A stretch of 45,733 nucleotides of DNA from a virus. Positions 30,196 to 45,384 of this stretch are shown here, one piece after another. Within the stretch, counting starts at the first letter, position 1, and each line of letters begins with the position of its first letter. The notes under the pieces were generated by a model. It was not told where the DNA came from and ran no database searches. It saw only the letters and a program-made list of their open reading frames with translations. Both the position numbers and the translations under genes were made by a program. The stretch lies in IMG/VR virus record IMGVR_UViG_3300010885_029022, positions 1 through 45,733 of that record. One strand, written 5' to 3'.

Positions 30196-30570
30196 ATGAG
30201 CAATACAGACTCAACCACACCAATTTTTAAATTTAATGATAAAACCTACAACTTTCTAAAGTTTCTAGCTTTAGTTGGGCTACCAACCGTTGCATCCGCA
30301 TATTTTACTCTTGCTGGTCAGCTTAATTTAGCTAATCCAGAAAAGGTTGTTGGTATTCTTACTGTAATTACAACTCTTCTTGGCGTAATGCTTGGTGTGT
30401 CTACAAAGCAGTTCCATAAGTCTGGAGCTGCGTTTGATGGCGCAATTAGCATCACAGAAGGCGCTGATGGGTCTAAGTTATATTCGTTGGATCTTTACGG
30501 AGACCCAAGTACGCTTGATAGTAAGCAGATTGTAAGCTTTAAAGTAGGCAATTCAAATACGCAAGTATAA
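30196..30570 (+). CDS. Putative holin / membrane protein
   Basis: A 124-residue protein with two hydrophobic segments (FLALVGLPTVASAYFTLAG at about 24-42, VVGILTVITTLLGVMLGVS at about 50-68) and a soluble C-terminal half with DGAISITEGADGSKLYSLDLYGDP. I know this arrangement from actinobacteriophage proteins annotated as holins. It lies after the tail genes, next to other membrane genes, which fits. The endolysin that would use it is far upstream at 6283. AGGAG precedes the ATG. Holin call is by family recall and topology. Confidence 0.78.
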   Translation: MSNTDSTTPIFKFNDKTYNFLKFLALVGLPTVASAYFTLAGQLNLANPEKVVGILTVITTLLGVMLGVSTKQFHKSGAAFDGAISITEGADGSKLYSLDLYGDPSTLDSKQIVSFKVGNSNTQV

Positions 30571-30583
30571 CAACTGCTATAAT
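30560..30583 (+). promoter_or_regulatory. Repeated phage promoter, copy 1
   Basis: A 24-base block: CGCA, then AT-A-ACAA in the spacer, then CTATAAT with TATAAT at 30578-30583 and an upstream TG (TGCTATAAT). The block overlaps the end of the holin-like gene. The expected start site is near 30590, giving a leader of about 18 bases before the ATG at 30608. No TTGACA-like -35 is visible; the conserved part is the spacer itself. Confidence 0.75.
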
Positions 30584-30607
30584 GAACACCTACTGAGAGG
30601 ACTTATA

Positions 30608-30895
30608 ATGAGACTACCAAACAAGAAGGATAAAAACCCAAAGCTAACACTAGCCAAGGACAAGCTCATGGACGAACTGTCCAATTACGACCCACAAGAT
30701 AAGGAATATCAAGCAATTCTCGTAAGCCTGAAAGCCCTCACTGAACTCGAATCGCAACCGCGACGAGGTAAAGTTGATGCTAACACGCTTGCGCTAGTTA
30801 TCGGTAACCTTCTCGGAATCATTGTAATTGTCGCATACGAACAAAAGCACGTCTTTGCCAGTAAAGCTTCAGGTTTCCTCCTAAAAGCCAAGTAA
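30608..30895 (+). CDS. Small membrane protein, first promoter cassette
   Basis: A 95-residue protein: a Lys-rich, soluble N terminus (to about 57) and a C-terminal hydrophobic span (TLALVIGNLLGIIVIVAYEQ at about 59-78) ended by basic residues (KHVFASKASGFLLKAK). I know this type from actinobacteriophages, without a known function. It has its own promoter 25 bases upstream (copy 1) and a very strong terminator 29 bases after the stop, so it is expressed as a single-gene unit. Many codons end in C or G, suggesting high expression. Confidence 0.82.
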   Translation: MRLPNKKDKNPKLTLAKDKLMDELSNYDPQDKEYQAILVSLKALTELESQPRRGKVDANTLALVIGNLLGIIVIVAYEQKHVFASKASGFLLKAK

Positions 30896-30971: not shown

Positions 30972-31028
30972 AACAAGTGCTATAAAAAATTCTAAAAAAT
31001 TCCCCGAAGTAAAAATTTGAAATTAAGT

Positions 31029-31052
31029 CGCAGGAATTACAACTCCTATAAT
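31029..31052 (+). promoter_or_regulatory. Repeated phage promoter, copy 2
   Basis: Same 24-base block as copy 1: CGCA, AATT-ACAA spacer, CTATAAT with TATAAT at 31047-31052, followed by GAGAAG. Upstream DNA is AT-rich. No coding region begins nearby; the next 70 bases form hairpins ending in a T-tract, so it seems to drive a short RNA. A weaker look-alike (ACAAGTG-C-TATAAA at 30974-30986) lies just upstream. Confidence 0.75.
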
Positions 31053-31122
31053 GAGAAGCAGACATCCTCACTGTCTGGCAACCCTTGCAAAAGAAAAAGC
31101 CAAACTTCTCCTATTTTTTTTT
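31053..31122 (+). ncRNA. Candidate small structured RNA 1
   Basis: Between promoter copy 2 and a T-tract (31114-31122) lies a compact fold with no open reading frame of note. Hairpin CAGACA (31059-31064) with TGTCTG (31072-31077) abuts hairpin GCAA (31078-31081) with TTGC (31085-31088); an A-rich strand follows (31089-31104), then CTTCTC (31105-31110), which is complementary to GAGAAG at 31053-31058. The expected start is about 31058-31060, so that closing stem may not be transcribed. The T-tract directly abuts promoter copy 3. Function unknown: an sRNA, or an attenuated leader. Confidence 0.45.
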
Positions 31123-31146
31123 CGCAGGAATTACAAGGCCTATAAT
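31123..31146 (+). promoter_or_regulatory. Repeated phage promoter, copy 3
   Basis: The 24-base block again: CGCA, AATT-ACAA, GGCC, TATAAT at 31141-31146, followed by GAGAAG as in copy 2. It begins at the first base after the T-tract of the upstream RNA unit, so the two units are directly joined. It drives the second structured RNA, and perhaps by read-through the protein genes from 31291. Confidence 0.75.
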
Positions 31147-31152
31147 GAGAAG

Positions 31153-31265
31153 TAAGATAAGACACGAACGTGTAGGTGAAAGACCTACCTATCTGGTGCA
31201 GAAGCTAAGCTGCTAAATTACAATTTTCGTTGGATTGTAAACCCTAGACATCTCATATTTTTTTT
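31153..31265 (+). ncRNA. Candidate small structured RNA 2
   Basis: About 113 bases from the expected start to a T-tract (31258-31265). AGATA (31155-31159) pairs with TATCT (31190-31194) and closes two hairpins: ACAC/GTGT (31162-31173) and AGGT-GAAAG-ACCT (31074 offset: 31174-31186, extendable to GTAGGT/ACCTAC). Then GCAG/CTGC (31198-31213) and a 7-bp hairpin TTACAAT/ATTGTAA (31218-31240). TCTCAT just before the T-tract can pair with ATGAGA at 31145-31150, but that lies at the promoter. It is not a tRNA. It could be an sRNA or a regulatory leader for the gene at 31291. Confidence 0.45.
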
Positions 31266-33281: not shown

Positions 33282-33284
33282 TAT

Positions 33285-33308
33285 CGCAAGTATAACAAGG
33301 CCTATAAT
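33285..33308 (+). promoter_or_regulatory. Repeated phage promoter, copy 4
   Basis: The 24-base block begins two bases after the previous stop codon: CGCA, TATA-ACAA, GGCC, TATAAT at 33303-33308. The next ATG is at 33333, the same 25-base distance from the -10 box as in copy 1. AT-rich DNA precedes it. It drives a single small gene. Confidence 0.75.
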
Positions 33309-33332
33309 GATAACCACTATTGAAAGGCAGAA

Positions 33333-33578
33333 ATGAAACTCGATACTTTTAAACTGGCCAGCGCTTTTGTCGTCGGTTCAGGTGTTGGCAAAATCACATC
33401 CACAATAATTAATAACAATGTTATTCCGCAGACGAACCTCCAAAAGGTTCTAGTCGCTGCGGGAAAATTTGGCATTAGTGTTGCGGCAAGTGCGATTGTT
33501 GTTAAGCACACTGACGCCTATATTGACGAATGCGCTGCCATGTACAAATCGTTCAAGCCAATTCTTACCAAGAAGTAA
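33333..33578 (+). CDS. Small membrane protein, second promoter cassette
   Basis: An 81-residue protein with two short, weak hydrophobic stretches (KLASAFVVGSGVGKI at about 7-21, VLVAAGKFGISVAASAIVV at about 39-57), both Gly/Ala-rich as in helices that pack together, and a basic C terminus (KSFKPILTKK). Flanked by promoter copy 4 upstream and a terminator at 33604-33629 downstream, so it is expressed alone. C/G-ending codons are frequent. AAAGGC precedes the ATG. I do not know the family. Confidence 0.8.
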   Translation: MKLDTFKLASAFVVGSGVGKITSTIINNNVIPQTNLQKVLVAAGKFGISVAASAIVVKHTDAYIDECAAMYKSFKPILTKK

Positions 33579-44059: not shown

Positions 44060-44132
44060 TCCTCTATAGCTCAGTTGGTAGAGCATCGGACTTTTAATCC
44101 GTGGGTCGCAGGTTCGAAACCTGCTGGAGGAA
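44060..44132 (+). tRNA. tRNA-Lys (anticodon UUU)
   Basis: A 73-base cloverleaf. Acceptor TCCTCTA (44060-44066) pairs with TGGAGGA (44125-44131) with one G-T pair; D arm GCTCAGTTGGTAGAGC; anticodon loop CTTTTAA with TTT; T arm GCAGGTTCGAAACCTGC. CCA is not encoded. It reads AAA/AAG. Confidence 0.96.
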
Positions 44133-44143
44133 CGCAATACTTA

Positions 44144-44227
44144 GCCCAGGTGGCGGAATGGCAGACGCAGAGGACTTAAACTCCTCCGTTCGTAATGGAC
44201 GTACGGGTTCGAATCCCGTCCCGGGCA
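44144..44227 (+). tRNA. tRNA-Leu (anticodon UAA)
   Basis: An 84-base tRNA with a long variable arm, as expected for leucine. Acceptor GCCCAGG (44144-44150) pairs with CCCGGGC (44220-44226) with one A-C mismatch; anticodon loop CTTAAAC with TAA; T arm ACGGGTTCGAATCCCGT. CCA is not encoded. It reads UUA, a codon common in the window's genes. Confidence 0.95.
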
Positions 44228-45134: not shown

Positions 45135-45135
45135 T

Positions 45136-45159
45136 CGCAAAAATTACAAGGCCTATAAT
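45136..45159 (+). promoter_or_regulatory. Repeated phage promoter, copy 5
   Basis: The fifth 24-base block: CGCA, AATT-ACAA, GGCC, TATAAT at 45154-45159. Two bases after the previous stop, as in copy 4. The ATG of the next gene is at 45187, 28 bases from the -10 box. It drives a single small membrane gene with its own terminator. Confidence 0.75.
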
Positions 45160-45186
45160 AGAACCATCTATTCAAGGAGAACCGTT

Positions 45187-45384
45187 ATGAACCCATCAAC
45201 CAAACTTCTCGATAAGGCTGTCAGTGACCTGACGCTTCGTGATTCACTCAAGATCAACCTCGGTGTTGTGGCAGCATTTGTCGCAATCCCAGTTGCAATC
45301 GGAGTGGGCGCAAGCATCAAGTCAAAGATCAGCACCATCAAGAACAACCGCAAAATGAAGAATACCGAAACAACTGAAAAGTAA
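45187..45384 (+). CDS. Small membrane protein, third promoter cassette
   Basis: A 65-residue protein with a charged N terminus (SDLTLRDSLKIN), one hydrophobic span (LGVVAAFVAIPVAIGVGASI, about 25-44) and a strongly basic, polar end (KSKISTIKNNRKMKN). Flanked by promoter copy 5 and a terminator at 45393-45433, so it forms a single-gene unit. Codons end in C or G far more often than in neighbours (ATC, AAG, AAC), which suggests high expression. AAGGAG precedes the ATG. Family unknown. Confidence 0.8.
   Translation: MNPSTKLLDKAVSDLTLRDSLKINLGVVAAFVAIPVAIGVGASIKSKISTIKNNRKMKNTETTEK

Follow-up and report, generated by a model that had tools for sequence, protein, structure and literature searches.

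A stretch of phage DNA at positions 31028-31122 looks like a gene for a short structured RNA, one of about 100 similar non-coding units in related phages that share a promoter block not found described before and appear to be transcribed by an unusual phage-encoded RNA polymerase. The window analyzed is the 45,733-nucleotide uncultivated virus record IMGVR_UViG_3300010885_029022, an incomplete contig with capsid, tail, and replication genes. The unit, designated unit 1, is real as a promoter-RNA-terminator design and is a fast-evolving member of a new RNA class, while its product is inferred from sequence alone and its role can only be guessed at by analogy. The features of unit 1, of the adjacent unit 2, and of the other copies of the promoter block are as follows.

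31028-31056, + strand: promoter block of unit 1 (TCGCAGGAATTACAACTCCTATAATGAGA)
31051-31053, + strand: inferred transcription start of unit 1, with A31051 favored
31053-31058, + strand: 5′ strand of the closing stem P1, GAGAAG
31059-31077, + strand: hairpin P2, CAGACA-UCCUCAC-UGUCUG
31078-31088, + strand: hairpin P3, GCAA-CCC-UUGC
31089-31104, + strand: A-rich single-stranded linker
31105-31110, + strand: 3′ strand of P1, CUUCUC, which is the 3′ arm of the terminator stem
31114-31122, + strand: U-tract of unit 1 (nine T), whose last base is also the first base of the next promoter block
31122-31150, + strand: promoter block of unit 2
31145-31257, + strand: unit 2, a conserved RNA of the same design with a tRNA T-arm-like hairpin
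30559-30587, + strand: same promoter block before a small ORF (30608-30895)
33284-33312, + strand: same promoter block before a small ORF (33333-33578)
45135-45163, + strand: same promoter block before a small ORF (45187-45384)

The original prediction described a promoter block followed by two adjoining hairpins, no reading frame, a nine-T tract, and a complementarity between the end of the unit and the GAGAAG that follows the -10 box; this observation is confirmed, and its coordinates are correct. The P2 arms (31059-31064/31072-31077) enclose a 7-nt loop, the P3 arms lie at 31078-31081/31085-31088, the two hairpins are flush, and GAGAAG directly after TATAAT pairs with CTTCTC over 6 bp. The only ORFs that cross the unit start with TTG and lack an SD (31017-31145 and 31085-31216). 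The minimum-energy fold alone is weak, with a z-score of -1.7 for 31051-31119 (13 of 200 shuffles were as good) and of -2.3 in a second calculation. Its significance therefore stems from the promoter and from the recurrence of the architecture in relatives.

The sequence GCAGGAATTACAANNCCTATAATGAG occurs exactly twice in the window (31030 and 31124), with none expected on the basis of 100 shuffles. A matrix built from 819 copies outside the window, with the consensus TCGCAAGAATTACANGGCCTATAATGAGA, identifies five sites in the window, all on the + strand (30559, 31028, 31122, 33284, and 45135), with scores of 24.6-42.8 bits (42.7 bits for unit 1), while the next best position on either strand scores 0.9. 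The sites at 30559, 33284, and 45135, which carry the block in weaker form, precede an SD and a start codon. The block is not a canonical -35/-10 promoter because the conserved part is TCGCA....TTACA.....TATAATGAGA at fixed spacing, with no -35 hexamer. It is found in Arthrobacter phage Giantsbane, Gordonia Tanisvirus phages, and many IMG/VR phages. The same spacing holds in Streptomyces phages Rima and HotFries, Arthrobacter phages Mudcat and Gordon, and Gordonia phage Crocheter, as well as in Lactococcus phage P078 as TTTTACATACCCTATAATGARAGG, with a variant in Curtobacterium phage JoyLin (TCGCAGGAATTACAGGGCCTTTAATAGACC).

The block tracks a phage-encoded polymerase. Giantsbane gp93 and Tanis gp92 belong to phrog_4291, a family named RNA-dependent RNA polymerase, and share an invariant ADFDGD motif, the catalytic signature of double-psi-beta-barrel RNA polymerases. 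A tblastn search finds this gene in 250 phage records, and in public phage records it is annotated variously as an HTH protein, excise, RNA-dependent RNA polymerase, or hypothetical (e.g., 26663-29398 of L011 and its relatives; L-numbers denote the individual loci fetched for comparison). The Streptomyces, Gordonia, Arthrobacter, and Lactococcus phages with the same block and spacing carry it. Records selected only for promoter or RNA motifs encode it in 22 of 33 cases, including all 14 of at least 39 kb other than the window. In a second set, of which seven records were chosen by a neighboring protein and the rest by promoter, 21 of 22 related records carry the gene, compared with 0 of 21 unrelated control contigs, which also have no promoter site. 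The window itself lacks the gene, which is explained only by its incompleteness and by its nearest relatives, L210 and L211, which have the gene and seven promoter sites each. Co-occurrence can also reflect common descent, but the conservation of the block in phages of Actinobacteria and Lactococcus argues for a phage-encoded reader. A profile search of solved structures with the polymerase returned only weak matches, one of them to the DFDGD region of a phage beta′ subunit at an E-value of 1.2. A search for a T7-type polymerase in five records found none, although the control search was empty as well and the result is thus weak.

Transcription probably starts inside TATAATG, at A or T (31051-31052 in unit 1), and not at 31058-31060 as originally assumed. 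Of 824 distinct sites in the fetched loci, 604 are followed by an SD and a start codon, while 104 of the other 220, including unit 1, are followed by a U-tract and a stem of at least 5 bp between the first bases after TATA and the bases before that tract. For 151 promoters without an SD, the 6-mer at index 6 of TATAATGAGA finds its own complement before a U-tract in 29 cases, compared with 4.4 when another unit's sequence is swapped in, and the counts at indices 0-2 are 0, 0, and 1. In 99 units, the T at index 5 faces A in 61, whereas the T at index 2 faces A in 4. The stems, up to 18 bp in length, vary in sequence together with their complements, for example GAGAAGACACTC/GAGTGTCTTCTC, GAGACCAC/GTGGTCTC, and GAAGAAGC/GCTTCTTC. 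In unit 1, the only partner for the strand before the U-tract is GAGAAG itself, and no other hairpin lies next to the tract. The simplest reading is that the closing stem is part of the RNA and also serves as the terminator stem. Because the units were chosen for having a closing stem, their low folding energies are partly built in.

Unit 2 (31122-31265, promoter block included) belongs to a conserved RNA family that is absent from Rfam, is found in dozens of related phages, and is characterized by a tRNA T-arm-like hairpin, with a true TTCGAAT loop in L172 and L183. In an alignment of 21 sequences, 19 of 27 pairs show compensatory double changes, and the covariance model identifies unit 2 at 115.8 bits (E 1e-33) as well as distant members in other loci. 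Sixty-seven fetched loci carry units of the class (1-5 per locus), 26 of them two or more. Nine variable units contain internal direct repeats of 10 nt or more. Two or three hairpins with the same loop sequence, as in protein-binding RNA arrays, occur in L324 near 3310 (three ACCCGAUAAGGGAGA hairpins), L319 near 4695, L050, L139, L172, L174, L171, and L177. Other units are tRNA-like, with D- and T-arms but no usable anticodon (8935-9016 of L204, where the anticodon arm reads CCGC-GCAA-GCGG, L304 near 6224, and L201 near 19007), and are not called as tRNAs by ARAGORN.

In contrast, the interior of unit 1 has no homologues, as exact and BLAST searches returned chance hits only, and the nearest relatives have unit 2 but no unit 1. 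Preservation of hairpin pairing in relatives, which had been set beforehand as a test, thus fails for the interior of unit 1 but is strongly supported for unit 2. Unit 1 scores only 8.1 bits with the unit 2 model and is not a significant member of that family. Rfam searches at gathering and permissive thresholds returned nothing relevant; the only matches were two ordinary tRNA genes elsewhere in the window (44060-44132 and 44144-44227), and the best weak match in the region fell far below its threshold.

The favored explanation, held with fair confidence, is that unit 1 is a gene for a short non-coding RNA. In this view, the single-chain phrog_4291 polymerase of the phage recognizes the ~30-bp block and starts at about position 31051, and the first bases of the RNA pair with CUUCUC just before the U-tract, such that one helix both forms the terminator and ties the two ends together. 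The product would be a ~63-70-nt three-way junction of P1, P2, and P3 with an A-rich single-stranded arm. The architecture, the recurrence of the promoter, and the co-occurrence with the polymerase rest on computational evidence, whereas recognition of the block by that polymerase, the exact start, and expression are inferred. By analogy with the other units, several of which carry two or three hairpins with the same loop, the RNA may act in trans as a fast-evolving structured RNA that binds a host protein or RNA in host takeover or counter-defense, but this role remains a guess and is tentative. The original interpretation of a dedicated non-coding product is partly supported: a unit with its own promoter and terminator and a closing stem repeated in the next unit are borne out, while the suggestion that the stem might act only at the DNA level is revised in favor of a probable start inside TATAATG.

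Among the alternatives, the one that survives best, although unlikely, is that unit 1 is a shrunken and possibly decaying tandem copy of unit 2, generated by duplication followed by deletion of the T-arm and P4, with no separate function. The two adjacent units have near-identical promoters, tandem copies of the unit 2 RNA occur elsewhere (L006, L036, and L150), the 3′ ends 31095-31121 and 31239-31265 are 78% alike, and the covariance model aligns both ends and P2 of unit 1, with 7 of 300 interior shuffles reaching the best alignment score. However, 8.1 bits is not significant for the whole window (the default scan did not report it), 22 of 300 shuffles reach the mean score, and other, longer variable units score as well or better. 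The nearest relatives have no second copy, and the intact promoter block of unit 1 argues against decay. Such a paralogue is possible but unproven.

A host sigma-70-type promoter that starts at 31058-31060 is less likely still. TATAAT is a perfect -10 hexamer, and bacterial RNA polymerase starts 5-9 nt downstream, in which case the GAGAAG pairing would not be in the RNA and would act, if at all, in DNA. However, there is no conserved -35 box, and the conserved element runs from TCGCA to GAGA at fixed spacing in phages of very different hosts. In addition, terminal-stem pairing starts at TATAATG and falls off downstream, and from 31059 no hairpin adjoins the U-tract. Also doubtful is a cis element, in which a promoter and immediate terminator insulate or pace transcription into unit 2 and the downstream genes and the RNA is a by-product. 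Promoter, terminator, and next promoter are indeed packed without gaps (94-bp spacing), but many units in other phages contain long, elaborate interiors, some with repeated hairpins of the same loop, which insulation does not need. Equally doubtful is a base-pairing sRNA that blocks ribosome sites with its C-rich loops (UCCUCAC and CCC), like Gram-positive C-rich sRNAs, because, although the UCCUC loop resembles an anti-Shine-Dalgarno, predicted duplexes with 25 start regions of the window were no better than shuffles (73 of 100 as good) and revealed no target there.

A broader reading, which is possible but less likely than not, is that a widespread phage lineage uses its own single-chain, multisubunit-related RNA polymerase to produce a rapidly diversifying arsenal of small end-sealed RNAs, some tRNA-like without an anticodon and some with tandem identical hairpins, that act on host or defense proteins, with unit 1 as one such RNA and the block as the first defined promoter of this polymerase family. 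If true, this would supply a concrete promoter for a family of phage RNA polymerases related to cellular multisubunit enzymes and would point to about 100 unannotated structured phage RNAs as a likely source of host-takeover or counter-defense molecules. Phage small RNAs and phage polymerase promoters are both known, while their combination here was not found described in literature searches for this promoter or these RNAs, although these covered few subscription journals and do not prove novelty.

Of the known systems, actinobacterial 6C RNA likewise has two hairpins with C-rich loops in an actinobacterial setting, but the loops of unit 1 are not C6, it has no Rfam match, and it has an end-to-end stem and a phage promoter. 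The promoters of T7-like single-subunit RNA polymerases are also contiguous, with conserved bases that run into the transcript (TATA/GGGAGA versus TATA/ATGAGA). YonO of SP-beta, the nearest studied enzyme, is a single-chain phage RNA polymerase with a DxDGD-type active site, whose mapped start lies upstream of yonK and of an unannotated non-coding RNA and whose promoter sequence was reported as undetermined (PMC5467207). It belongs to a different PHROG (8308 versus 4291), and a profile comparison revealed no significant similarity. The yonK-yonN gap contains TTGAAATTACATACCCTCGTAAAATAAG, which shares TTACATACCC with the Lactococcus P078 block and lies in a stretch present in 24 SP-beta-like phage records; in SPBc2 (L209), the gap holds AAATTACATACCCTCGTAAAATAAG at about 60140-60160 on the minus strand, a possible YonO promoter. 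This is a lead only, as no base-exact coordinate was found in papers to place the published start (2225998) on the motif, and the genome collection held no exact match to the SP-beta promoter. The virion and non-virion RNA polymerases of Thermus phage P23-45 have AT-rich and GC-rich motifs, with no terminal-stem non-coding units found reported, and show, by 5′-end sequencing, that two-barrel phage polymerases have their own promoter motifs (PMC10770324).
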